Shown: one piece after another, positions 2,524 to 21,490 of the stretch
How the letters are laid out: every line of letters begins with the position of its first letter
Position numbering within the stretch: the first letter of the stretch is position 1
Origin: a virus
IMG/VR virus record: IMGVR_UViG_3300043466_001463
Coordinates: 1 to 35,582 of that record
DNA length: 35,582 bases
Strand: one strand, 5' to 3'
Notes under the pieces: model-generated
Databases searched by the model: none
The model's input: only the letters and a program-made list of their open reading frames with translations
What the model was told of the DNA's origin: nothing
Translations under genes and position numbers: made by a program

Positions 2524-3858
2524 CTAGGAAGAAAAGTTGGTAAATCCCGAAAGATTTATGGTTTCATAAGTTTGCCCACTTGGGCCAAGTGTATTGATCA
2601 TACCCTGAATAGATGAAAGACAATTAGGATGAAACGGCCCACTATTTCCTGTGGCATGATGGCTAACAAGGACTAAATCATTGTTAATAATAAAAAAACA
2701 AGGACTTCCACTGTCCCCGCCACGAATATTTGATGGATCTCCGTTATAATTTGGCAAGTTATTTGCATATGCTATGAAATTTGCTGAAATATAGTAAATT
2801 ATGTCTAATCCAAATAACGGATTTATGATTTCACCAGTTTCATAAAAATAAGCATATCTGTTGGGTCTCTGTAGGGGCCATTCAGCATCCCATCGGTAAT
2901 GGCTACAGACGACTATCGGAATACCAGAAGATCTTAGTGACCTACTGGTTCCATCAGTTCGATAAATATTTCTATTGATTGGTAGATAGTTTTCAAAATT
3001 TGACGGAAGGGTTTTGTATTTTTTTACAGTTGACGGGAGAGGTTCTGAAAATTTAACCACCACCCCATCAAAATCCATAGAAAGAATCCTGCTTTCAACC
3101 GTCCTTGAAACGAGTTGATTGTTTGTATCGCAAAAATATAACGTATCACCAACTTCTGGGGGATAGTGACCAGCACCAATCGCATGATATGGTGTTATTG
3201 CCGTTACATTTGTAACTCCTGCGCTACCAGACTTATTGACGGTTAAACCAGAAAAATCTAATGGATAAGTCCAGCTTCCTGTATTTCTAACATAAATATT
3301 ATTCGTATAGTCAAATGTGGAATATAGCGGATAATGATTTGGAGGAGAAGTTGATCCATCGGCGTATTGCCTTATCTGATCATAGATGTGACGCCCCAAA
3401 GAACCAGTAAGAAAAGATTGGAAAACCTCTTTTGTGGCCGATTCTGATAACGTGGAAGTTGTTACGGCTTTTGTTATTTTTTCATTAGTACCAAAGGTTA
3501 CCGTTAATGACGTAGTCCCAGTAGATTCATATTCAAATAGATTTGATTCTTCTGATGAATTTGAAAGAATTGATGTGTTTTCACTGGCATAAGACTCAAC
3601 AAAGCCAAACTTTTCTGGTCGAAAATTAACAATAGCTCTCACATTAGTTGCTGATGTTGGATATGTGTCTCTGATAAGATTAGTATCCCCCAACACATCA
3701 GATTGAGATGATCCAGATGATAATGGCGTGTATTCTATAACAAAATCAAGGTCTGCCGTTCTGTCTGCAACGGTTTGCTTGGAAAATTGCCTAGCAAAAG
3801 TAGGAGTTGTGGCAACCCCACAATCAATAGGACAGTTAATAGCTGGCTCAATAGCCAT
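2524..3858 (-). CDS. Virion-block protein with trypsin-like serine protease domain
   Basis: A 444-residue protein. Its C-terminal half looks like a chymotrypsin-fold (S1-like) domain. It has GDSGSP at residues 381-386 (nucleophile Ser383), followed by a beta segment NNDLVLVSHHATG. Upstream are a His-containing strand, ITPYHAIGAGH (about 221-231, candidate His225 or His231), and MDFDGVVVKF (about 261-270, candidate Asp262 or Asp264). The order His, Asp, GDSGSP matches the family. The N-terminal 200 residues are Ser/Thr-rich and unlike a pro-peptide. No signal peptide is seen. It sits between fibre genes and the portal, so it is probably a virion or fibre-associated protein that could self-process fibres or cut host surface proteins (inference). 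Catalysis is unproven because the His and Asp are only inferred by order. Confidence 0.6.
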   Translation of the reverse strand: MAIEPAINCPIDCGVATTPTFARQFSKQTVADRTADLDFVIEYTPLSSGSSQSDVLGDTNLIRDTYPTSATNVRAIVNFRPEKFGFVESYASENTSILSNSSEESNLFEYESTGTTSLTVTFGTNEKITKAVTTSTLSESATKEVFQSFLTGSLGRHIYDQIRQYADGSTSPPNHYPLYSTFDYTNNIYVRNTGSWTYPLDFSGLTVNKSGSAGVTNVTAITPYHAIGAGHYPPEVGDTLYFCDTNNQLVSRTVESRILSMDFDGVVVKFSEPLPSTVKKYKTLPSNFENYLPINRNIYRTDGTSRSLRSSGIPIVVCSHYRWDAEWPLQRPNRYAYFYETGEIINPLFGLDIIYYISANFIAYANNLPNYNGDPSNIRGGDSGSPCFFIINNDLVLVSHHATGNSGPFHPNCLSSIQGMINTLGPSGQTYETINLSGFTNFSS

Positions 3859-3860
3859 GG

Positions 3861-5021
3861 CTATGCAATGTCCATTTCGCAGCCGCGCACAACGGCAAGC
3901 CAGCGAAGAGTTTTAGAGCTATCCCCAGTGACCGAAATCTTCAAGTAATCCGAAGTATTATCAGCGGTAATAGAAACATCATATCCAGCCTGAGATTCAT
4001 GGTCTGTTCCGACAGTTGTCACTGATCCGATCAATGAGGTAGTTCCTCCTAAATTTTGGATGGCAAACTTGCGGATATAGTGTGCTGCTTCTGTGGCCGT
4101 ACCTTCCTCAATAGCGCAAAGTTCTACCTGACCAAATAAAGCAACGCCTATTGGTATGGTAAGATATGTTGCGGTGTGGATGATTAATTCGGTTGGAGTG
4201 GAGTTTGTTGTCCTGCCCTTAAGGATAAACTGAACAGCTTGTGCCCTCTCTGAAAAATCAAAATTTGCTAACGCGCCACTTGATCCATGGGCGAGCATGT
4301 TTCGTCGATCTGCCATACCTGTAAAGGCAACCGACTCATTAGAAGTAATGTTTGAGCGAAATGCAAAAGAACCAGAGCCGCTAACTGTAGTACCACTAGC
4401 TCCAGAAATTAAGCAAGAGGAAGTCCCGCTAACAGTGGAAGTTAAAGAGCCTATAATACACGAATTGTTTGCGCTTGCCGTGCATCTTGAAGAGCCAACA
4501 ATAAGGGAATATGGGCCAGAAGCAACCTGAGTTGCCGCTGTTCTCTCACCCTGTAAATCTACAGCCGATCTACCTCTCGCGTTACCAGCAACAAATGGCC
4601 CGCCTAAAAATGTTCCACCAATGGCCTCTACATCACTACTTATAAACACCGACCCCGCGCCCCTTGAATTTGGCCCTGTGGGAAATGTCATCAGGGTTCC
4701 ATCAAGGGGAAATTTTGAAGCGGGGAATCCACCAACTGTAGACCCGTCACCAACTACAAGCTTTTTAAGATCGGTTTCCCAAATGGGTTCACCCTGTAAC
4801 GGGGTGATTGCCCCTACTTCCGCTGCTGTTCCGCGACGAATCTGAAGGTTGGCGGGCTCTGTGATATCCACCCAGTCAGCATCTTTCCTTCCATAAATAA
4901 CTCCGTCTTCGGGAGCTTCGGCAAGGCCATCTCCAAAGCGCGGATCATCTCCCTCCGCATAGGTTCCTGCGGTAGTTCCAGCTACTACTGGTAATGGGTA
5001 ATATGCAGATAAATTAGCCAT
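3861..5021 (-). CDS. Tail fibre/tailspike-like protein with YadA-like head repeats
   Basis: A 386-residue virion protein. Residues about 60-100 contain LQIRRGTAAEVGA...GEPIWETDLKKLVVGDG, the RRGT/GE..WETD/GDG pattern found at the N-terminus of many phage fibres and tropism determinants. The middle (about 150-225) is Ser/Gly/Ala-rich with short SxxNSCIIGS-type repeats like trimeric autotransporter head repeats. The C-terminal about 130 residues form a compact beta domain ending SKTLRWLAVVRGCEMDIA. It most likely forms a trimeric adhesion protein. ATG 5021 lies 50 bases after the preceding stop; the downstream gene starts 3 bases after its stop. Confidence 0.65.
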   Translation of the reverse strand: MANLSAYYPLPVVAGTTAGTYAEGDDPRFGDGLAEAPEDGVIYGRKDADWVDITEPANLQIRRGTAAEVGAITPLQGEPIWETDLKKLVVGDGSTVGGFPASKFPLDGTLMTFPTGPNSRGAGSVFISSDVEAIGGTFLGGPFVAGNARGRSAVDLQGERTAATQVASGPYSLIVGSSRCTASANNSCIIGSLTSTVSGTSSCLISGASGTTVSGSGSFAFRSNITSNESVAFTGMADRRNMLAHGSSGALANFDFSERAQAVQFILKGRTTNSTPTELIIHTATYLTIPIGVALFGQVELCAIEEGTATEAAHYIRKFAIQNLGGTTSLIGSVTTVGTDHESQAGYDVSITADNTSDYLKISVTGDSSKTLRWLAVVRGCEMDIA

Positions 5022-5071: not shown

Positions 5072-6331
5072 TTACGGAACAGGAGACAGGGCATCCGCCA
5101 ACTGTTGCCCCGTGGACTCTATGGTTGCAGCGTTCTTGAGACGCGCACCGATGCTGCCAGAAGTGGTCATGCCGCTTACCAGAGCATCCCAAACGGCGGA
5201 TTGAGTCAGAACCGCTGTGCCCACCGTATTATCCACGGCTACACCGAGGGCCACCGATCCAACGGCGGGGATACGAAGCGTTCCTGTACGGTTGCCCAAG
5301 GCATAGACCGTTCCGTGGCGGACATTGGATTGGTCGGGCATCCCTGTCGAAGCAGACGGGTCAAACAGGGTTTTTTTCGTTGTTCCTAGGCGATGCACCA
5401 GAAAGACGTTGGTTGTTTTGTCGGGGCAGCTTACTGCTCCCGTAACAGGAGCTTGTCCAAGCGAGCCAAATTCAAATTCGTCCACACGGGTTTGGGAACC
5501 AGCAACCGAGCTAACTACTCCCGCAACAGAAATTATTCCAGTTGTGCCAATTCCCCATCCATTGCCCACTGCGCGTGTGACATTGAGAATTCCCGTGGAA
5601 GCGTTATTAGCTCCAACGGAGTTATTGGAAGCAATGGCGGAGCCGACAATAGTGAGAGTTCCTGTAAGGGCGTTGATAGCTCCAAAAGTACTTGCACTAG
5701 TCCCTCCAGTAACATTTCCAGTGATTGTTACGGTTCCTATTGAACCATTGCTAACTCCTTCTGTCGTACTTGCGCTTCCTCCAGTAACATTGCCTGTTAT
5801 GTTTACTGTTCCAGTAGAGTTATTGGTTATGCCACGAGAGTTTACCGCAGAACCGCCAGTTACATTGCCCGTAATTGTAATAACTCCAGAAAAATTGTTC
5901 AATACTCCTACGGCTGGGTTTACTGATCCACCAGTAATGTTTCCATTTATATTAAGAGTACCAGAAGACGTATTTGATACCGCCGTGACGCCAGCAGTTG
6001 TGCTTCCACTAACATTACCAGTAAGTGTGGCGCTATTCCCAGATACCCCAGCATAGGTAACACAAGTTGCCGTTCCAGTAACTACATTTGCCGTCAGCGT
6101 TACTCCATTGTTAAGAGTAAAACTGCCACCAGCAGTAGCTCCATTCGCATTGTCATTTCTAACTGTTGCTACTGTGGTGGATACGTTGACCGTGATAGCG
6201 AAGTTATTAGCATGTAGAACATCAGTGTTGTTAAATGTAGACCAGACATCAGAAGGCGTTCCGCTGGGGGTTGTGGCCCAGACGTTCGTGGCATTAATGT
6301 TGCCATTCGCTCTTGCAAAGTAGTTAGCCAT
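5072..6331 (-). CDS. Beta-solenoid repeat fibre protein, copy A
   Basis: About 419 residues. ATG 6331 is chosen over an in-frame upstream start at 6370 because it gives the N-terminus MANYFARANGNINATNVWAT, which matches the neighbouring paralogue, and it falls just after that gene's stop. The centre (about 120-260) is a run of imperfect 20-24-residue repeats built on NITGNVTGGS plus an Asn/Ser-rich turn, as in right-handed beta-helix adhesins. The C-terminus (about 270-419) has TRVDEFEFGSLGQAPV and GSIGARLKNAAT segments shared with the next gene. It is probably an elongated fibre or surface-binding virion protein. Ligand unknown. Confidence 0.6.
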   Translation of the reverse strand: MANYFARANGNINATNVWATTPSGTPSDVWSTFNNTDVLHANNFAITVNVSTTVATVRNDNANGATAGGSFTLNNGVTLTANVVTGTATCVTYAGVSGNSATLTGNVSGSTTAGVTAVSNTSSGTLNINGNITGGSVNPAVGVLNNFSGVITITGNVTGGSAVNSRGITNNSTGTVNITGNVTGGSASTTEGVSNGSIGTVTITGNVTGGTSASTFGAINALTGTLTIVGSAIASNNSVGANNASTGILNVTRAVGNGWGIGTTGIISVAGVVSSVAGSQTRVDEFEFGSLGQAPVTGAVSCPDKTTNVFLVHRLGTTKKTLFDPSASTGMPDQSNVRHGTVYALGNRTGTLRIPAVGSVALGVAVDNTVGTAVLTQSAVWDALVSGMTTSGSIGARLKNAATIESTGQQLADALSPVP

Positions 6332-6332
6332 A

Positions 6333-7586
6333 TCAGGTAGAGATTGCGTCAGAGATTGAGTGGAGGACAATATCTGTGGTTGCGGCGTTTTTCAGCCGTG
6401 CCCCGATACTGCCAGATGTTGTCATTGAGCTTGTCAGCGTGTTCCAAACATTTTCGGGGGTGAGAACCGCCGTGCCTGTTGTATTGTCCACAAGAACGCC
6501 GAAAGCCACAGACGAAGTGGATGGAACAGCCATTGTGCCAGTCCTGTTTCCAAGAGCGTAGCTTGTTCCGCTGCGGACATCGGATTCATTAGGCATTCCC
6601 GTGGACGCCGAAGGATCGGAGAGAGTCTTCTTGGTAGTCCCAAGACGACGCACTAAAGCCACGTTGGTCGTAAGATCAGGTGTGCTGACGGCCCCAGAAA
6701 CAGGAGCTTGTCCAAGTGCGCCGAATTCAAATTCTTCGACACGGGTTTGAGAACCAGCCACCGCGCTGACTACTCCAGCAATAGAACTTATTCCAACAGT
6801 TCCAATACCCCACCCGTTTCCTACTGCGCGAGTTACATTTAGAATGCCTGTTGAAATATTGTTTGATCCAGCAGCATTATTGGATGCAGTAGATGTTCCA
6901 ATGATTGTAAGCGTGCCTGTGGAGGCATTTCTCGCCCCATCAGAGCCAGAAACCGATCCACCAGTTACGTTTCCAGTAATTGTCATTGTTCCAGTAGATA
7001 TATTTGTAGCTCCATATGAAGTATTCAGACCGCCACCCGTAACATTGCCTGTAATATTGATTGTTCCAGTGGAACTGTTGTAAGCGCCTTCTCCCACAGC
7101 CGCACTTGAACCAGTAACTGACCCAGTAATATTGATGGTTCCTGATGATGCGTTAAATGCACACCTTGACGATCCCCCAGATCCTCCCGTGCAGTTGCCA
7201 GTAATATTTAGGGTTCCACTGCTTGCATTGGAAGCGCCATTTGCATTTGTGCTAGTTCCACCCGTGAGATTACCTACAATCGTGGCAGAGTTTCCAGATG
7301 TTCCGCTATAAGAAACACACGTTACCCCGCCTGCCACAACATTTGCCGTCAGCGTTACTCCATTGGATAGCGTAAAACTTCCGCCCGCAGTTGCGCTGTT
7401 GGCATTGTCATTTCTAACTGTTCCAACCATAGTAGAGACGTTGACCGTGATAGCAAAACTGTTGCTATGTAACGTGTCGGCACTTGTGAAAGTAGACCAT
7501 ACATCAGCCGCCGTTCCACTGGGCGTAGTTGCCCATACATCAACAGCATTGATGTTGCCCGCTTTTCTGGCGAAATAGTTGGCCAT
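6333..7586 (-). CDS. Beta-solenoid repeat fibre protein, copy B (paralogue)
   Basis: A 417-residue protein closely resembling the downstream gene at 5072-6331. It has the same MANYFAR N-terminus, the same NDNANSATAGGSFTL segment, the same run of GTINITGNVTGG-type repeats (about residues 110-240) and the same TRVEEFEFGALGQAPV and GSIGARLKNAAT C-terminal blocks. The two are a tandem duplication. The number and order of central repeats differ, suggesting slippage or recombination between repeats. It is expected to be a virion fibre-type protein. The two genes are separated by one base. Confidence 0.6.
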   Translation of the reverse strand: MANYFARKAGNINAVDVWATTPSGTAADVWSTFTSADTLHSNSFAITVNVSTMVGTVRNDNANSATAGGSFTLSNGVTLTANVVAGGVTCVSYSGTSGNSATIVGNLTGGTSTNANGASNASSGTLNITGNCTGGSGGSSRCAFNASSGTINITGSVTGSSAAVGEGAYNSSTGTINITGNVTGGGLNTSYGATNISTGTMTITGNVTGGSVSGSDGARNASTGTLTIIGTSTASNNAAGSNNISTGILNVTRAVGNGWGIGTVGISSIAGVVSAVAGSQTRVEEFEFGALGQAPVSGAVSTPDLTTNVALVRRLGTTKKTLSDPSASTGMPNESDVRSGTSYALGNRTGTMAVPSTSSVAFGVLVDNTTGTAVLTPENVWNTLTSSMTTSGSIGARLKNAATTDIVLHSISDAIST

Positions 7587-7927: not shown

Positions 7928-10252
7928 TTAAGAGTAAGAAGCTGTCAGTCGGTCATCCCATTCGACACTGGATGCAGTGAGTGTGGCAACATGGGCTCCA
8001 GCCGAATTATATTCGCTGCGGCGGATCGTCCAGCTTGCGGTGGATTCGCTGGTGCCTGCGTTGGCGAGTCCTGTGTAGGTGTAGGGTGATACGAAATCGC
8101 TGCGGACTTCGCCGCTTCCGCCCGCTGCCGAAAGCTCCCCCGCCGAAAGGCTCAAGCCCGACCCGATTTGGATTTCCTCGATGGCACCTGTGCTGCTGCT
8201 TGTCCTTCCGAGTATCCGCGCTGTGGCTTGCGTGAGGCCAGAGGCGGTGATGGAGCCGCTGGCGGCTGCGCCTGTTACGTCTGCGACAACGTGGGTGTGT
8301 CGATTTGTTCCGTCTTCGACCCAGCTATTATTTGAAGTCGAAGCGGCGATGTATGTTGCTCGCTGACCGTTTGTAAGGCTATTGCCCAAAAAACTACCAT
8401 TGCCATTGCGAACGGGCATTTCTCGCCCCGTGAAAGTTGTGAACCGAATTTGCACAACATCGCCAGCCTGCACATTTGTTGTTGGTAGCTGGACGTTTGG
8501 TGTTGGCGTATTAAACGTGTTGACTGTGACCGTGTAAATCTTTGCGCGGGCGGCGGTCAGTGTGACGTTGGCGGTGATGGTTCCGAGGTCTTCAGTGACG
8601 AAGATGGACTGCGCCCCAATATCACTGGGAGCTAAAAAATCACTTCCGCTAATCGCATGGGACTCTTTGTGCGCGAGGGTGCTGCTTGGCGTCCTCGCAT
8701 CCGAAAGCCGCGCATCATTCCCCTCGCAAGCTGTTCCTGCCGAAGATCCGTAGCTGACTGTGAGAGTTCTATTAGCTGTAAGATCTCCTCCACCTGTAAG
8801 CCCTGTTCCCGCGCTGATGGTTCTACTTGTCGGCACACCTCCGATATTAGTTAGTGCGGTTGCGGGATTTGAGACATCAGATAAGTTATTAACCTCAAGC
8901 AATGCTCCTTGCGCCGTCAAAAGCCCGCCAACATTGATCGTCCAAGCTGTGAATGGCCCTCCGCTACCTTCTACGGTATCGACATTAACCACCAACGATG
9001 TTCCAGAATAGCTGGTAACAAAAGCATGCATATGACGGGATGCATCGTATACAATGGTAACGTCTTGTGTCGGGGTGTAGCTAAGTCCTGACTGGACAAC
9101 GAATGTCTTGGAGCCAGTAGTAAGGGAGTGGGATGATGTGCTGGTTGTGAGATATCGGTCTCCGCGATTTGCCAGAGTAAATGCCGTAGTTGCAACCTGA
9201 GTGGTATTGGTTCCAGCAGATGCTGTAGGGGCTGTCGGAGTACCAGTGAGGGCTGGCGATTCCAGATTGGCTTTGAGATCTAGTGCTGTTTGCGTTGCGG
9301 TAGATACAGGCTTATTCGCATCCGAAGTGTTATCGACACTGCCAAGCCCAACCATGGATTTGGTAATCCCGCCAACCGTTCCAGTAAATGTTGGAGAATT
9401 TATTGGTGCTTTTAGATCCAGTGCGGCTTGAGTGGCCGTTGAAATAGGCTTATTAGCGTCTGATGTATTGTCAACATTGCTTAGTCCAATATCAGATTTT
9501 GTGGCAGAAGCTCCAACAGTTGCCCGCCCCTTTGCGTCAACCGTGACCTTGGTGTAGGTACCAGCAACAACCCCACTATTGGCCAGTGTGGCATTTGTAA
9601 TGGCGCTGCCAGTGTTTCCAGATAGCGTTAAATCGCTACCAGTGACGGAGATGCTTCCAGATGGAATTGATACCGCCTGTGTCGAAAGATTGGTGACCCT
9701 ACCTTTTGTGTCTACTGTTACTACAGGTATAGCGGTTGAAGATCCGTAAGTACCAGAGGTTACTCCCGAAGTGATTAGGGTCGGATTTGGGTAAGTTCCC
9801 GTAAGATCTCCGCCTGCTGGGCCAACAGGAGTATTTGAGGTGGCATAACGTGGAAGGATTTGCCATCCACGGGTAGTCCCCGTGTAGACCATTGTAAAGT
9901 ATGCTCCTTCGACATTGCAGACCAAATTCTCTTCAATACCCTCAATTCTTTTTCCGTTTCGGGCAATAGTGAGATTATTGGTGTCAAAAGTTTCGGAGAA
10001 ATCAAGGATGTCTATGGCGTCCCCGTTATCAGGATTTGCTGGCAGCGTAAGAGTGAATGGCCCACCAGATGTGTCTGCGGCTATAAGATCCGCAACTTCC
10101 AGCGTCCTGTTGCTCGATACAACTACATAGTTGATATCTGGCTGCGGGCCAGCGGGCCCACGCTCTATAATCTCAAGAACCTCTACCTCTCTTTCGGTTA
10201 TCTCAACAACTTCTATCTGTTTTTCGATAACCTCAATGACTTCTTGGCTCAT
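7928..10252 (-). CDS. Long tail fibre protein
   Basis: A 774-residue fibre. The N-terminus is a charged Glu/Ile/Val helix ([20 protein letters not shown]) ending in GPAGPQ, a short collagen-like turn. Residues about 60-140 form a beta domain with [15 protein letters not shown], seen in many tail proteins. The middle has two copies of a 46-residue phage-fibre repeat carrying [16 protein letters not shown], whose DNA repeats at about 9311-9356 and 9450-9495. It is followed by [15 protein letters not shown] and a C-terminal region rich in Thr/Ser. It should be a trimeric receptor-binding or spacer fibre. It overlaps the upstream gene by 4 bases, consistent with coupled translation. Confidence 0.75.
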
Positions 10253-10617
10253 CGGGAAATTTCCTGATAGACCTTGGCCTTACCAGTGGCAAATGCGATA
10301 TAAGTATAGCCGAGGTAGAGTTCGATTTCATAGACGTTGTCGCCTGCGGTGAGATTTGCTGCCTGTGTGGCGGTTATTTCGATTTCAATAGTTCCCGCGC
10401 TTCCGCCTAGCGTGATCCCACTTCCAGAGGTTAGCGTGAGCAAGGTAGCGCTATCCTTTGCACATTCCCGAATTACCATATTGGCACCGTAGCCTGAAAG
10501 ATTTACAGGTACATTGGACTTGCCATTACAAGACTTTGCCAGATAACGAAACTTCGCCGTCCAAGTTTTTCCTTGGACGATTTCAATATCTCTCTCAAGT
10601 CTCCAGTAGTTTGTCAT
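10249..10617 (-). CDS. Baseplate upper protein (BppU)-like small virion protein
   Basis: A 122-residue all-beta protein. The pattern is QGKTW near the N-terminus, then [16 protein letters not shown], a glycine-rich [16 protein letters not shown] strand pair, and [10 protein letters not shown] near the end. The same order of elements occurs in the protein at 13262-13624, so the two are paralogues. The pattern matches the N-terminal domain family of phage baseplate upper proteins that link fibres to the baseplate. It overlaps both flanking genes by 4 bases, which points to tight co-expression with the two fibres on either side. Confidence 0.6.
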
Positions 10618-12935
10618 TTATAAAGAGGAACACGGAAGCTAACATTGCTGCCATTAGTCTGAATTGTAACATCCATCCAAGCAACATGGTTGTTGAAATT
10701 TCCAGCATTTGTCGGGTTAGAATTTGTGGCAAACACTGCTGCTTGGAAGTTGGCATTGTTGGTATTTGTTAGGGCTGGAAGACCGAGGCCAAGATTTGTT
10801 CTGCTTACAGCCTTGTCACTTTCTGTATTGGTTCCTGCAAAATAAATAGGCTCCACATAAGACAAATTGTGATCCAAGTTCCAAACGCTGCCGTAATAAA
10901 CAAATTTTACAGCTTCGTTAAATCTAGTGAGTGTAATCAGGTTGTTTGTACTTCCGTCAGACCTAACAATGGTCATGCTGTTTGTCGGGCCTTTGTGTAC
11001 AATTGTGGCGTTATCGCCAGCAAATGCCGTTCCATTGGTTCTAAGCAAAATAACATTTGTTACATTATTGATACTGAAAGCGAGGCTATGAAGGTGAAGG
11101 CTTCTTGATCCAGTAGCAAAATTTGTCGAATTGGTAGTTGGAATACTCTCTTGAAATGTAGATGAAATCGGAGCCTGCTGCCAGAAGTTGGTTGGGCTTA
11201 CTACAGATCCACCTGTATCGACCAATACTGGATTAGTGTTAGATCCAAAAAGTGCAGCTTGGAATGTGGCTGCGTTTGTATTGGTAAGACCAGTCCAAGG
11301 CAATCCAAGGTTAGTTCTGGCTGTGCCAGCATCGAATGCCGTATAAGCAAATCCGCTCCAACCAACAAAAGCTGGTGTTGCGGTGGAAACATTTGTAACT
11401 ACTTTTGAAACTGCTCCACCACTTCCTATCGAAAGAAGACCGCTACCCAAAGATGATACGCCTTCAAAAAGGAGAGGCCCATTAAGATAGATCCCGTTGC
11501 TTGCGTTGACAGCAAACGTGCTGTTTCCTCGCGAAACCGCCGCTGTCCCTCCTTGTGGAACTCCATTGAAAAGAAAAGCACCCCAATTGGTCATTGTTCC
11601 AATTCCGCCCAAAAGAACAGATCCACCAGCTTGATTTCCAAAGTTTGACATGGAGTGACCAAATCCAACAGCAAGACTGTTTTCCACTGTTGAGTCTATT
11701 GTTATCTGTTTTCCAAATGCCGAAGAAGCGTTTGAGACCGTGGAATTATTAGTTATATTAATACCGACCGATAGAGAAGCAAACGCATTATTTGTCGCGC
11801 CAAGCCCGATGGCATTGCGGAAGTTTGTGGCGTTGGTGTTGGTGAGCCAAGTTGCACCGAGGCCAAGGTTGGTGCGGGTAGTAGCGGCGGAAATTCCTGT
11901 AAATTGGATTCCATCAGAAGCAACAGTGGTGCCGTTTGAGCCAGCGGCAACTTCCAAACTGCCAGCAAACAAGTCTGCAAGAATCGTGAGGCCGTCAAAA
12001 ACAGGCTGGGCATTGGTTCCCAACCCAATCGCACTTCGGAAATTTGTGACATTAGTGTTGGTTAGCCAAGTCGCACCGAGACCGAGGTTAGTGCGGGTTG
12101 TAGCAGTCTTTAATACCGCATTTGTCCCCACAATAGAAATTGCACCGTTTTCGACTTGAACGTCTCCAGAAAATGTTTGGGTTTCTGGTTCATAACGAAT
12201 AATGCCAGACCAAAGAATAGCATCATTAGAGATGCTGAGATCACCGCCACCAAATGAAACTCCAGCAAATACAGGAATATTTGTTGCTCCAAGCCCAATA
12301 GCTGTGCGAAAATTAGTGACATTGGTATTTGTTAACCATGTTGCGCCCAATCCTAAATTTGTGCGAGTTGCAGACGCATTTCCCAAAGCGTCACCACCAA
12401 AAGAAATAGGAACATAAAATGTAGAGGTGTTTGTAAGCCACTCTTGATTTTGGATTCCAATAGCCGAACGAAAAAAGCTACTATCTGTATTCGTAAGCCA
12501 TGTAGCACCCAATCCAAGATTGGTTCTGGCTACGCTTGCATTAGTTGCTCCAGTTCCACCATTAACCAAAGCAACGATTCCAGTAATATTGGTTGCTGTT
12601 ATATTTGTTAAACCAGAAGCGTTTCCATTTGTTGCTATTTTGGTATCAAGATTTGACTGAAGACCGACAACTCCAGAGATGGCAATATTCGTCAATGAGG
12701 CACCATTGTTTGTGGAAAGATTGGTAAGATTTGTGCTGGACGACTGAAATGCGGTTGCTGGATTTGTCGCTGCGGTTCCGAGTCCAAGCCCTGAACGAGC
12801 ATTTGAAGCATCGGCGCTCCAAAAGTTGGTCGGCTGGACTACGGTATTGTTAGTCCCAACCAGAACATTGCGCGTTTGCCCGAAGCCAGAAGCAACCAAG
12901 GCTCCACTGATAATAAGTGAGAGAATATATTTCAT
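10614..12935 (-). CDS. Fibre-like repeat protein with N-terminal signal peptide
   Basis: About 773 residues. ATG 12935 is preferred to an upstream in-frame TTG at 12956. It begins MKYILSLIISGALVASGFGQ, a textbook Sec signal peptide with probable cleavage after GFG, which is odd for a phage structural protein. The rest is Asn/Thr-rich with at least five repeats of about 30-70 residues sharing TRTNLGLGATWLTNTN plus FRxAIGLG. A long middle section (SFGGGDLSISN, NAFASLSVGINITNN) looks like trimeric-fibre beta structure, and the C-terminus ends [11 protein letters not shown]. It lies between two baseplate-like genes, so it is probably a fibre. Alternatively it is exported and displayed on the host surface. 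The signal peptide is clear; the destination is inference. Confidence 0.6.
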   Translation of the reverse strand: MKYILSLIISGALVASGFGQTRNVLVGTNNTVVQPTNFWSADASNARSGLGLGTAATNPATAFQSSSTNLTNLSTNNGASLTNIAISGVVGLQSNLDTKIATNGNASGLTNITATNITGIVALVNGGTGATNASVARTNLGLGATWLTNTDSSFFRSAIGIQNQEWLTNTSTFYVPISFGGDALGNASATRTNLGLGATWLTNTNVTNFRTAIGLGATNIPVFAGVSFGGGDLSISNDAILWSGIIRYEPETQTFSGDVQVENGAISIVGTNAVLKTATTRTNLGLGATWLTNTNVTNFRSAIGLGTNAQPVFDGLTILADLFAGSLEVAAGSNGTTVASDGIQFTGISAATTRTNLGLGATWLTNTNATNFRNAIGLGATNNAFASLSVGINITNNSTVSNASSAFGKQITIDSTVENSLAVGFGHSMSNFGNQAGGSVLLGGIGTMTNWGAFLFNGVPQGGTAAVSRGNSTFAVNASNGIYLNGPLLFEGVSSLGSGLLSIGSGGAVSKVVTNVSTATPAFVGWSGFAYTAFDAGTARTNLGLPWTGLTNTNAATFQAALFGSNTNPVLVDTGGSVVSPTNFWQQAPISSTFQESIPTTNSTNFATGSRSLHLHSLAFSINNVTNVILLRTNGTAFAGDNATIVHKGPTNSMTIVRSDGSTNNLITLTRFNEAVKFVYYGSVWNLDHNLSYVEPIYFAGTNTESDKAVSRTNLGLGLPALTNTNNANFQAAVFATNSNPTNAGNFNNHVAWMDVTIQTNGSNVSFRVPLYK
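11815..12533. repeat. Imperfect DNA repeats inside the signal-peptide fibre gene
   Basis: Four imperfect copies of a unit of about 65 bases lie near 11815-11881, 12036-12102, 12305-12370 and 12468-12533. Each carries, on the plus strand, a segment like GAGCCAAGTTGCACCGAGG followed by AAGGTTGGTGCGGGT. They encode the TRTNLGLGATWLTNTN block. The first two copies are the most alike, the last two more diverged. Such repeats allow gain or loss of fibre segments by recombination. Confidence 0.6.
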
Positions 12936-12937
12936 TG

Positions 12938-13261
12938 TTACATTAGTCGTTTCCAAACCCTTTTGGTTCCTGTTTGGCTATCATAGTCATTGGGTCGAAC
13001 TACGAATGGTAGGTTTTCGGCGTCAGTGCCGTTGGCAAGTTGATAGATTGCAGGAAGCCCATCAACAACCAGAAAGATAACAATTCCAACAGCATAAGTT
13101 CCGCTAACTGTATTCAGGCTATCAAGGTTGGTTGAGCCGCCGCCCTCTAAACCAGTAATTGAAGGTTCAACACGAAGAATGTTGACGCTTGGGGTTTGGA
13201 TCGGAGTCGAAGAAACGCCGATAACGCTACTAGAGGGGATGGGGATACAGATCTTGCTCAT
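12938..13261 (-). CDS. Small virion-block protein, unknown function
   Basis: A 107-residue protein starting MSKICIPIPSSSVIGVSS. The N-terminal third is Ser/Thr/Pro-rich. The middle has a Gly-rich turn (GLEGGGSTNLDSLN), then a hydrophobic strand GTYAVGIVIFLVVDGLPAIYQL. The C-terminus PNDYDSQTGTKRVWKRLM resembles the last strand of fibre-attachment domains. The start falls directly on the preceding gene's stop boundary, and the signal-peptide fibre starts 3 bases after it. Likely a fibre-linked virion protein; no family recognised. Confidence 0.55.
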   Translation of the reverse strand: MSKICIPIPSSSVIGVSSTPIQTPSVNILRVEPSITGLEGGGSTNLDSLNTVSGTYAVGIVIFLVVDGLPAIYQLANGTDAENLPFVVRPNDYDSQTGTKRVWKRLM

Positions 13262-13624
13262 TTATCGGGTAACCTCTGGTGAAATGATAACATTGCCTTG
13301 CAGGATTCGGGTTGTGACGGCCCCGTTGTAAAGCTCAAGGTCATATACGGCTTTATCACAGACCGAGAGCGATGCCGTGTCAGATGCCGAAATAAATAGT
13401 CTAATAGATCCCGTAGCTTCATTCAATACGATTCTACCATTACTTGTGGACAATTCAAGAATTAGTGCTTTGGATTCGGGCTTTGACCGAATATGAATCT
13501 TGGCGGTATAGCCCGTAAGATCCACTGGTGCAGATGGTTCTCCAGTCTCGTAAAACAGAGTCTGATTAAACGTGGCACCTTGGAATATACAAATATCCGC
13601 TTCGGCAATCGGTAGTTGAGCCAT
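13262..13624 (-). CDS. Baseplate upper protein (BppU)-like small virion protein, second copy
   Basis: A 120-residue protein. ATG 13624 (MAQLPIAEADICIFQGATF) is preferred to an upstream TTG at 13633. It has FQGATFNQTLFY, PVDLTGYTAKIHIRSK, a NEATGSIRLFIS strand and KAVYDLELYNG. This is the same element order as the protein at 10249-10617, which marks the pair as paralogues of the baseplate-upper N-terminal fold. It is the first gene after the terminase in the leftward direction, 16 bases downstream. Role: probable adaptor for the downstream fibres. Confidence 0.6.
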   Translation of the reverse strand: MAQLPIAEADICIFQGATFNQTLFYETGEPSAPVDLTGYTAKIHIRSKPESKALILELSTSNGRIVLNEATGSIRLFISASDTASLSVCDKAVYDLELYNGAVTTRILQGNVIISPEVTR

Positions 13625-13640
13625 AAATGGCAAATAGAAT

Positions 13641-15482
13641 CTACCAATTCTTCTTTATAGTCAAGGCTTGTTTGAGTTTTTTAAATGTCTCTTTGTTGAT
13701 ACGTTTCTTTTCCTCAATCGCCTCACTTCCCGCCATGGCTCCAAATACCTTGCGGGCCACAAATAATCCTACTGCAAACGAATCAAACAAGTCGGGAGAT
13801 TTTCCGATCCTCTTTTTCATGTCAGTCTTGGACTCAATGATGATCTTGCGGGTTCGGCGCACATACTTTCTCTGGGTCATCTCCCATGCCAAGTCGGGCG
13901 TAATTCCTTTGAGTTGCTCGCATTCAAGAAAGTAGCGAGCAGCAAAGCACAGTTCTGAGGCCATGTTGTGGAACAATTCCTTGCCAACTTGCGGTTTTCC
14001 AGTGACTTCGTTTCTCATGGCGTATTGGGCGCTGACAGGAAGGTCGGATGCCGCTCCTGCAAAACTTACTGCATGCCAACCCTTTAGGAGTTCTCGTTCT
14101 CCGATTGACCAGAAAATACCTCCAGCCGAAGCATCTACGCCCATCCACTGATTTGGAATTCCCAACTTTAGAGAGAGATCGTGGATTTGTTGGATCATCT
14201 CGTATTGGAAGTCCTCTTGAGAGCCCGCCCTTCGGTTGAGGACATACTGTTTTTCGACAGCTATCGCCCACTTGCCGCTAATAAGCTTTCCATACTTGAG
14301 GTGTGTAAACACGAACCTATCGCCGCCTTCGGTATAGCTTGGATCAATGCCAGCAATATCTTTCGGGGTTCCATCCCAGATCGGCCTATCCAATGCCCCA
14401 TGGCGAGCCAATAGGATATCAGAGACAATCGTAGAGTCATCGGCATCGGCAGGGGGCCAGAATCCTCTAAACTTTCTCCAATACTGCGGATTGAGTTCTC
14501 CGAGTTCCTTTTTGGCAAGAGCCACATCATTAGGTTTGGGAAGAAATGGATAGCGCAACCCCTTGCCAGCATCGAAAGACTGTTGGTTCGGATTGTCGTT
14601 CTCTGAATCAAACCTGATACATACCCCCTCGATACCAGCAACCCGTATCTTCCAATTCGGGGTTTGCTCGTCCACACTCATCCATCCCTTGATGGGTTCG
14701 CAGAATTTTCCATGGGGGTCAAAAATGGAGGACGGGTTACCAGCGCCGACAATATAAAGCTCTTGTGCGCCCTTGAAACCCCAGACCGCCTCATTGATTA
14801 CCGAAGCCGAGCAGTCTTGTAACTCGTCAATAATCAACACGATACGACGATTTTTCTTACCCTGAAGTCGCTTCTGGGCATCGTCTTTGTATTCATCGCC
14901 AGCCGCCAAAAGCATGATGGAGGATGCGTCACTCACCCCTGTTTCGGGATCAATAATAGCGCCTTCCTCATCCGAAAGCTTGATGATGTCCATGGACTCA
15001 ATGAGTCTTCCAGAGGCTAACCCCATGTTTCGGGCTTCGCGGTACATCTTGACCAATGCCGCCCAGATACGCTGTTTGGCGTCAATTTTGGACGTAGAGA
15101 CCACAATGGTCATCGTATTGATGGGGTCGCAGAACCAGTTAACCAGCGCAAACGCCGCCATCCCATAGGATTTGCCAGAGTCGGTACCGCCAGCCAGACC
15201 CGTCACACTTCGGACAAATCGGTTTCCTGTAGCCTCATCCACCTCATAGACTTGGTTGCAGAATGCCTGTGCGCTTAGTTCCGCCCACCTGTGCCATTGG
15301 AAGGTTGGCCAGATTGCCGAGACAACATTGCGATAATGTCGGGCCTTGCCAAGCCCTCCTTCTTCGGGGGTAAGCCCCTGCAAGAAGGCGTCCATCTCAA
15401 TGCGGATTGGCGTAATTGCCTGTCCGTCTTTGGGTAACCACAACCTCCCGTATTTCTCTATCCCTTGATCAACTGTTGCCAT
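13641..15482 (-). CDS. terL: Terminase large subunit
   Basis: A 613-residue packaging motor. The N-terminal ATPase has a Walker A motif GGTDSGKS at residues 98-105 and Walker B IVLIIDE at 214-220, with Glu220 as the likely catalytic base. The C-terminal nuclease domain has Asp380 in IAGIDPSY, Asp450 in WMGVDAS and a third acidic site in SPDLFDSFAVGLF near the C-terminus, the usual RNase H-like metal cluster. A Lys-rich tail ends KKLKQALTIKKNW. It translocates DNA into the prohead through the portal and cuts the concatemer. It diverges from the small-terminase-like gene, with only 28 bases between the two start codons, so both promoters must overlap this gap or lie in coding sequence. Confidence 0.92.
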   Translation of the reverse strand: MATVDQGIEKYGRLWLPKDGQAITPIRIEMDAFLQGLTPEEGGLGKARHYRNVVSAIWPTFQWHRWAELSAQAFCNQVYEVDEATGNRFVRSVTGLAGGTDSGKSYGMAAFALVNWFCDPINTMTIVVSTSKIDAKQRIWAALVKMYREARNMGLASGRLIESMDIIKLSDEEGAIIDPETGVSDASSIMLLAAGDEYKDDAQKRLQGKKNRRIVLIIDELQDCSASVINEAVWGFKGAQELYIVGAGNPSSIFDPHGKFCEPIKGWMSVDEQTPNWKIRVAGIEGVCIRFDSENDNPNQQSFDAGKGLRYPFLPKPNDVALAKKELGELNPQYWRKFRGFWPPADADDSTIVSDILLARHGALDRPIWDGTPKDIAGIDPSYTEGGDRFVFTHLKYGKLISGKWAIAVEKQYVLNRRAGSQEDFQYEMIQQIHDLSLKLGIPNQWMGVDASAGGIFWSIGERELLKGWHAVSFAGAASDLPVSAQYAMRNEVTGKPQVGKELFHNMASELCFAARYFLECEQLKGITPDLAWEMTQRKYVRRTRKIIIESKTDMKKRIGKSPDLFDSFAVGLFVARKVFGAMAGSEAIEEKKRINKETFKKLKQALTIKKNW

Positions 15483-20386: not shown

Positions 20387-21003
20387 AGCTCCTCCTCGCT
20401 TTCGCTAACCCAACGGCTTCCAGTGCTTTCGCAGCTAAATTCTTGGCTAAACACCTTCCAGTCGGGCTTCTTGGGAAATTTCTTGGCGATAAACGATCCG
20501 CCATCCATCCATAGCACACGATTGTTAGGCTGGATGAAATATTGTCCATTGCCCGCAAACACATGACCACACTTGTGGCCTGCTGCCATTTCCCCGTAGC
20601 CAGAGGTGTATTGCGGCCCCAAACACCAATCTAGCGTGAACATATACTTGGCCTCCTCAAAGCTTTTGTTTTTAAGCATGATGGATGCCGCCCTGTTCTT
20701 GCAGTAATCCAAGATGTTGACAGAGCAATAGTAGCTCATGGAGTCCCATAGCTGTATCCAATCCAAAGGATAGAAAGTCCCACCAGTTTCATCGGTATGT
20801 ATGTAATGGATCGGCACTCTAGCATGTTGACTTCCGTATTCCGTCATCACGCTGAACAATCCACATCTCTGAGGGATAGAAGTATAGGCAAACACTTCTA
20901 CCAGTTGTCTTGGACGAGAAATCTCTGGTTCCAGATCGTAGAAGAACCCTTCGTCTACAAAGGCAAAGAAGGTGGGAATATTAACATTGAGGTAGTTGCT
21001 CAT
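20356..21003 (-). CDS. Hypothetical protein, 215 residues
   Basis: Begins MSNYLNVNIPTFFAFVDEGF and is rich in aromatic residues, with about eight cysteines (QRCGLF, YYCSVNILDYCKN, LDWCLGPQYTSGYGEMAAGH, HKCGHVFAG). The GYGEMAAGHKCGHVF stretch could be a metal site. No signal peptide and no membrane helix. It is coupled to the secreted coiled-coil gene by a 4-base overlap. No family recognised; codon use is like its neighbours. Confidence 0.6.
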   Translation of the reverse strand: MSNYLNVNIPTFFAFVDEGFFYDLEPEISRPRQLVEVFAYTSIPQRCGLFSVMTEYGSQHARVPIHYIHTDETGGTFYPLDWIQLWDSMSYYCSVNILDYCKNRAASIMLKNKSFEEAKYMFTLDWCLGPQYTSGYGEMAAGHKCGHVFAGNGQYFIQPNNRVLWMDGGSFIAKKFPKKPDWKVFSQEFSCESTGSRWVSESEEELWFYDFKEQG

Positions 21004-21281
21004 TGTTCAGCAATCTTGCGAAGAAGTCTTGTCTGCTCTCGTAATTCCGAAAGTTGATGGCTGGCTGCAAGTTCAGCATCCAATCGTGCGTTTGATTCAG
21101 CCAACTCCGCATTGATGCGGCGAAGGGTGGATAGATAGGTGTCTTTAGGCTCTGGGCGACTCACATTTCCATAAATAACCTGTGTGCGCCCCGAATCTAA
21201 ATCATAGATAGCCCCGCTAAACGAACCATCTTGTGCCTGAACGCTGGTAACCAATGTCACTAATAGTAGTAGTAGTTTCAT
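21000..21281 (-). CDS. Secreted coiled-coil protein
   Basis: A 93-residue protein whose true start is most likely ATG 21281, giving MKLLLLLVTLVTSVQAQDG, a Sec signal peptide with probable cleavage after VQA. A longer frame upstream to 21461 crosses a structured non-coding stretch and is not believed. The mature part has a beta stretch (GAIYDLDSGRTQVIYGN), then a long coiled coil (LRRINAELAESNARLDAELA ... LREQTRLLRKIAEQ). It would act in the periplasm. It is the first gene of the leftward middle operon; an inverted repeat ends 8 bases upstream of its ATG. Confidence 0.6.
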   Translation of the reverse strand: MKLLLLLVTLVTSVQAQDGSFSGAIYDLDSGRTQVIYGNVSRPEPKDTYLSTLRRINAELAESNARLDAELAASHQLSELREQTRLLRKIAEQ

Positions 21282-21288
21282 AAAGAGA

Positions 21289-21490
21289 TTGGAAGCGGGG
21301 TGGCGCGACTTCATCGACCCCCCGATCTTTGAAGCTTCCGCATTTTCATGCCGAGTCTCCCCGCTTCCAAAAATTGGGAGAGGACTCAGGTCGCTCAACC
21401 CCGCATTCGCAGTGTTGCCCTCAATGATCCTCTCCGAAGTGTTCATAGATACATAGACCATAGCCCCTTCGGGGCGTTCAATGTTTTTTT
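21289..21490. ncRNA. Candidate structured RNA (or structured 5' leader) next to a terminator-like hairpin
   Basis: A 12-bp perfect inverted repeat, TTGGAAGCGGGG (21289-21300) with CCCCGCTTCCAA (21359-21370), encloses two smaller hairpins: CTTC/ATCG pairing with CGAT/GAAG (21310-21334) and GCAT/ATGC (21340-21351). A second stem, GGAGAGGA (21377-21384) with TCCTCTCC (21428-21435), follows, and then GCCCC-TTC-GGGGC (21463-21475) with seven T at 21484-21490. Read rightward it resembles a small RNA with terminator. Read leftward it is the leader of the gene starting at 21281. No confident rightward promoter is seen. Confidence 0.4.
21463..21490 (+). terminator. Possible rightward terminator
   Basis: GCCCC (21463-21467), loop TTC, GGGGC (21471-21475), then eight bases and a run of seven T (21484-21490). 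The gap between stem and T run is long for an intrinsic terminator, though CAT (21459-21461) and ATG (21481-21483) can extend the stem. There is no gene on the plus strand just before it. Confidence 0.35.

Follow-up and report, generated by a model that had tools for sequence, protein, structure and literature searches.

The window, which is the whole 35,582-nucleotide stretch of viral DNA that was analysed, is a phage fragment. A run of genes on its minus strand consists of the terminase, a phrog_1084-like protein, a 107-aa protein, a fibre-like protein, a second phrog_1084-like protein and a fibre without a signal peptide. These genes and the parts of the fibre-like protein are as follows.

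13641..15482, minus strand: terminase large subunit (phrog_2, 4.7e-14), used as an independent bait
13262..13633, minus strand: beta protein like phrog_1084 / phrog_3304 ('L-shaped tail fiber protein assembly')
12938..13261, minus strand: 107-aa protein
10614..12935, minus strand: fibre-like protein with a Sec signal peptide, 773 aa
12879..12935, minus strand: signal peptide, codons 1-19, with the predicted cut between GFG and QTRN
12777..12878, minus strand: constant mature N-terminus, Q20-G53 (QTRNVLVGTNNxVVQPTNFW...LGLG)
11259..12776, minus strand: variable middle of RTNLGLG / ALTNTN fibre repeats
10836..11258, minus strand: beta domain, residues 560-700 (AF2 mean pLDDT 78.2)
10617..10694, minus strand: C-terminal strand motif WMxVxxxTNG...FRVPLYK, replaced by other tips among relatives
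10249..10617, minus strand: second phrog_1084-like protein, whose start overlaps the fibre stop (ATGA)
7928..10252, minus strand: ordinary tail fibre without a signal peptide (phrog_35419, 7.5e-31), which serves as an internal contrast

The fibre reading frame runs on the minus strand from 12935 to 10614, and the plus strand of the same stretch contains 21 stops. Its ATG at 12935 lies 2 bases past the stop of 12938-13261, and the N-terminus of the product reads MKYILSLIISGALVASGFGQTRN / MKYILSLIISGALVASGFGQTRNVLVGTNN. A sequence-only reading had placed a fibre-like body with a Sec signal at 10614-12935; both are confirmed, and the strand, which it omitted, is the minus strand. The gene is positioned among structural genes, as is expected of a tail fibre. 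The 107-aa protein matched no PHROG or Pfam family. The same was true of a 759-aa gene at 206-2485, whose assignment as the portal is a guess from position alone. PADLOC found nothing on the window.

The tail-fibre homology of the body is seen through its relatives and its family profile. Searched by itself against PHROG, the window protein matched only phrog_17546 (0.008), and the relative at L014 matched the tail-fibre families phrog_11393 (3.7e-26) and phrog_5481 (3.4e-23). The family profile gave one match among solved chains, the 'putative tail fiber' 7z47_D (E 2e-6), via GGTGA..AR.NLGLG repeats. This chain, which we take to be from phage SU10, has a repeat segment like that of the window family and is known as an ordinary virion fibre. 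The full-length AF2 model was poor (pLDDT 46.9). The beta domain gave 15 BFVD matches at E<=0.001, which are mostly phage proteins and, where named, tail or structural ones. Ranked fourth by Foldseek was the phi10:1 structural protein R9ZYK6 (E 2.6e-4, TMq 0.45), which at 317 aa has the length of gp94; a fold search of the domain against the PDB yielded nothing at E<=0.001. The length of complete relatives varies between 312 and 1647 aa. The tips of 55 classed relatives comprise FR[VI]PL[YF] (23), QFWLPVYK (17), RVPYYQ (5), AHLKSLGL (4) and six others. Judged from its sequence, the fibre body is of the phage tail-fibre kind, and its C-terminal tips have been swapped. A Pfam nitroreductase match on the repeat region (24.2 bits, cut-off 23.5) was judged spurious.

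Signal peptides were called by a home-made rule, in a loose and a stricter version. The fibre N-terminus, MKYILSLIISGALVASGFG followed by QTRN, qualifies as a Sec signal peptide, with the positive n-region, hydrophobic core and small -3 and -1 residues of a Sec/signal peptidase I substrate. Under the loose rule, 3 of the 34 window genes were signal-like (the fibre, 21000-21461 and, weakly, 12938-13261), as were 444 of 20000 random 45-mers of the fibre protein's own composition. Because random sequences pass at this rate, the single fibre sequence is only suggestive, and the proof lies in conservation. The family set consists of 83 sequences (the window, 78 fibre-baited loci and four further loci), which reduce to 54 different N-terminal stretches at the DNA level and 31 different signal peptides. 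The signal-peptide prediction proposed in the sequence-only reading as a check was borne out, with 83 of 83 members passing the stricter rule and having Q at +1. All 31 signals have K at position 2 and consist of 19 residues followed by Q. Their -1 residue is G, S or A and their -3 residue G or A, the -2 position is free (F, Y, H, S or G), and +1 is Q in 31 of 31. Moreover, constraint jumps at Q20, with a pN/pS of 0.53 for codons 2-19 and 0.09 for codons 20-48. This shift points to a cleaved signal followed by a conserved mature start, and a structural anchor fits it less easily.

Among viral contigs that were scanned, 120 encoded relatives of the fibre, and 80 were kept, with gene order as in the window. 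The 107-aa gene is directly upstream of the fibre gene in 78 of these 80 loci, and in 78 of 78 the N-terminus of the fibre is a signal peptide; the remaining two (L004 and L042) begin inside the fibre gene. Because fetching by the fibre itself would be circular, a second set was baited by terminase alignment (155 relatives, 80 kept), some of its contigs being common to both sets. Eight of these contigs stop short of the site. All 72 usable loci have the fibre together with its signal, so this is a core gene of the clade, and the patchy presence of a dispensable gene for superinfection exclusion or lysogenic conversion was not observed. Homologues lacking the hydrophobic start had been named as evidence that would count against a signal, and there were none among the 72.

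Sister fibres carry signals of their own. At L056 and L093, the first fibre is followed by another whose signal differs (MKFNK.../QNNIGT, the slash marking the predicted cut), and L097, a 113-kb phage contig, has two tandem fibres with separate signals (...LLYG/QSIK and ...STVSA/QNNQ). The class C fibre in front of the 759-aa gene (...GVYG/QTIK) bears a signal in 16 of its 17 loci and is truncated in the remaining one, and yet another signal is found on a sister fibre of L177. Q directly follows the predicted cut in all of them. Sister fibres that share modules and have unrelated signals were found at L093, L056/L082, both L097 genes, L075 and L018. When six fibres were compared with every ORF of 150 aa or longer in the loci fetched before that comparison, every match outside class A with an intact start bore its own signal; class-A ORFs were removed by the motif QTR[NS]V, L088 and L095 are start-truncated and L096 is frame-broken at a contig end. 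In contrast, the signal-less fibres of the same phages have no modules in common with the window-type fibre at E 1e-8, and no signal is present on the tail fibres of isolates with short modules in common (Cr-LKS3, S-WAM2 and Shigella 2019SD1). In relatives, the same gene module also encodes proteins of 133-139 aa with signals cut before Q (IHA/QLVPQTQ type), at L013 8287-8706, L015 10523-10924 and L030 9398-9799. L026 6387-7526 encodes a 380-aa signal-bearing protein (SYG/QRQTV) with a different repeat body and no Pfam or PHROG match.

Similar signals occur in Cellulophaga phages, whose original genome paper is that of Holmfeldt et al. 2013. In phi10:1, the consecutive gp91, gp92, gp93 (pectate lyase) and gp94 (tail fibre) all have signals cut before Q and are annotated from 'experimental MS/MS proteomics'. 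Their homologues in phi18:3, phi19:1, phi19:3, phi46:3 and Ingeline_1 likewise have Sec signals cut before Q. In phi10:1 and parts of phi18:3 and phi19:1, signals with Q at +1 are carried by 10 of 22 examined virion proteins annotated by MS/MS, a count that includes four phi10:1 proteins noted as 'part of structural virion', leaves out phi19:1 gp96 at the locus edge and takes its MS evidence from annotation notes in sequence records rather than from raw data or mapped N-termini. The 10 are products of tail-fibre and pectate-lyase genes and of tail genes next to them. The 12 that were not called are the portal, capsid, connector, other tail proteins and one borderline fibre-region protein; among them is phi19:1 gp104, which is signal-like by eye but has no Q. 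Look-alikes missed by the rule (gp104, phi10:1 gp95 and the phi19:3 homologue gp90) were counted as negative. Where the phage annotation rested on similarity, 9 of 21 proteins were called, as were 3 of 8 neighbours without support. By the same rule, lom was the only call among 24 CDS of lambda, and spanin 18.5 the only one among 15 CDS of T7. Lambda J and stf and T7 gp17 have no signal, and the window fibre departs from these classical fibres in this respect. The usual view is that tailed phages assemble entirely in the cytoplasm, and the sequence-only reading started from this premise. The idea that virion proteins never pass through Sec does not hold, because the MS/MS-annotated Cellulophaga proteins bear Q-rule signals. 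The generality among Bacteroidota phages is limited, and no signal-bearing fibre was found in phi17:2 (0 of 10 proteins), phi12:1, phi38:1 (part), crAss001 (part) or FCL-2.

Across Assiduviridae, Pachyviridae and Duneviridae, the gp94 signal and the first ~57 residues hardly vary, in proteins 33-37% identical to the first. Additionally, the signal and the first 42 residues are 88-93% common to proteins with different bodies (phi18:3, phi13:2 and Nekkels_1). From this distribution, the gp94 N-terminus is apparently an adaptor traded between phages. The Cellulophaga fibres are like the window family in having a constant signal and mature N-terminus with exchanged bodies. They differ in that their phages are marine and have a known Bacteroidota host. 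Three of these phages have MS/MS virion annotation. There is no significant sequence homology between the two groups (hhalign prob 0.1%). Because this test failed, the window gene is filed as a predicted Sec/SPase I-type tail fibre and not as a member of the gp94 family.

Signals cut before Q follow the Q-rule of Bacteroidota (Bacteroidetes) secretion (PMC5837995; PMC10653852). The Q at +1 thus points to a Bacteroidota host, and the phylum is hinted at rather than fixed because PMC5837995, in its accessible text, does not cover Verrucomicrobiota. In the phage collection, the fibre has no relative among isolate phages, the terminase has one weak 26% match and the 759-aa gene has none. A single pattern-based scan covering 84,980 species genomes found no bacterial homologue of the fibre, and no host genome was matched.

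Phage genes of unknown function that carry Q-rule signals are already on record. Phages of Porphyromonas gingivalis (Nixviridae) have five such genes, whose signals expose Gln as here and which are not described as fibres in the accessible part of that report (PMC10367356). One or two signal peptides are noted in rumen Bacteroides phages in the part of the source that was available (PMC5723332). For North Sea flavophages, pectate lyases and structural proteins are reported as core genes, and the words 'signal peptide' are absent from the accessible text (PMC8776804). The targets of phage DGRs are variable receptor-type proteins, as here, but are reported, in the available portion of the source, to be without signal peptides (PMC6199706). 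Lambda Lom bears a signal and adjoins tail-fibre genes but, unlike the window protein, is not a fibre; it is a dispensable outer-membrane protein. In a literature search conducted mostly outside subscription papers, no description of signal-bearing virion fibres as such was found.

The predicted export of the fibre is well supported by the anatomy of the signal, the selection on it, its presence in the terminase-baited loci and the unrelated signals on sister fibres. From its core status, its fibre body and the Cellulophaga precedent, we infer by analogy that it also attaches to the virion in this uncultured clade. On balance, the protein is somewhat more probably than otherwise a tail fibre with which an uncultured tailed phage binds its receptor, synthesized in the form of a secretory precursor and joining the particle outside the cytoplasm. 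It would be synthesized late, alongside the other structural genes, exported by the host Sec machinery and cut by signal peptidase I before Gln20, which a host glutaminyl cyclase would probably cap as pyroglutamate. The fibre would then fold outside the cytoplasm and, once the envelope opens at lysis, dock via its constant N-terminus onto the particle or a partner fibre. The earlier suggestion that the protein is exported is upheld by the Sec signals of the family, and the protein may also be displayed on the infected cell. Counting against attachment to the virion, Sec alone reaches only the periplasm, and a periplasmic protein could stick to Cellulophaga virions; the failed homology test with the Cellulophaga fibres and the Bacteroidota phages lacking such fibres weigh on the same side. 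A broader proposal, which is tentative and for which the chances are a little below even, is that some tailed phages generally use this route of Sec export, SPase I trimming, pyroglutamate capping, periplasmic folding and docking at lysis, and that it is used independently by the window clade and by several families of Cellulophaga phages. If this is true, host-range proteins can mature in a compartment other than the cytoplasm, a course that involves processing by the host and docking when the cell lyses. For uncultured phages, an N-terminal signal cut before Q together with a fibre body becomes a search rule, which also hints at the host phylum.

The main rival is that the fibre is exported but never enters the particle. 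It would remain in the envelope or be freed at lysis, and by binding receptors it would block superinfection or competitors and keep progeny off debris. The export signal and the hypervariable tips are consistent with such receptor masking, and a free receptor-binding protein, gp38 of SD286, can block adsorption according to the accessible text of PMC12946066. Nevertheless, the gene is never lost in the 72 loci, unlike a typical accessory gene, and it sits among structural genes. Moreover, since no modules are shared with the signal-less fibres at the threshold given above, there is no sign that it copies the virion's own tip, and the signal-bearing Cellulophaga fibres are annotated by MS/MS as virion proteins. 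A protein that never joins the particle thus appears unlikely, though it deserves serious consideration.

Considerably less probable is that the hydrophobic N-terminus is an uncut membrane anchor or packing segment, located inside the virion or serving genome delivery. A hydrophobic helix at residues 2-16 of the low-confidence AF2 model is compatible with this, but small residues at -3 and -1 with a free -2 and an invariant +1 Q are not what an anchor predicts. The sequence of the segment is relaxed while its physico-chemistry is kept, constraint begins abruptly at Q20, and the sister fibres have unrelated signals.

Host surface proteins typically bear Sec signals, and no homologue of the window protein was found among isolate phages, which would suit the earlier idea of a vestigial signal on a recently captured host adhesin. 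This origin is very improbable: the signal is under selection, being maintained across 31 variants, and has been re-created on sister fibres, the body is that of a phage fibre, and the pattern-based scan found no bacterial relative. Least credible is translation from an upstream TTG that hides the signal, for although the window, as the sequence-only reading had noticed, and 33 of 82 relatives have a TTG 7 codons upstream of the ATG, another 36 of the 82 have no in-frame start between the preceding stop and the ATG, so the ATG at 12935 is the start common to all. In any case, a signal would survive the addition of seven polar residues ahead of MK. In four relatives, an ATG lies 11 codons upstream of the fibre ATG.

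Several other minus-strand genes of the window were of note. The product of 3861-5021 has an Mtd_N domain (PF18454, 2.7e-10), the N-terminal domain of major tropism determinants. In the fibre module, 2524-3858 resembles a trypsin-type protease by eye (TPYHAIGAGH, DFDGVVVKF, GGDSGSP), with no Pfam or PHROG match. The genes at 5072-6370 and 6333-7586 encode tandem overlapping paralogous repeat proteins (MANYFAR..GNINA..) with no family match. The protein of 20356-21003 matches phrog_3704, 'ferredoxin' (4.9e-38), a label that is odd for the sequence. Finally, 21000-21461 encodes a small protein in which an internal ATG gives a second signal peptide, MKLLLLLVTLVTSVQA followed by QDGSF, and contig G001 has a homologous layout at 37184-37579 (...LSNTLA/QDGSFN), beside the same neighbour.
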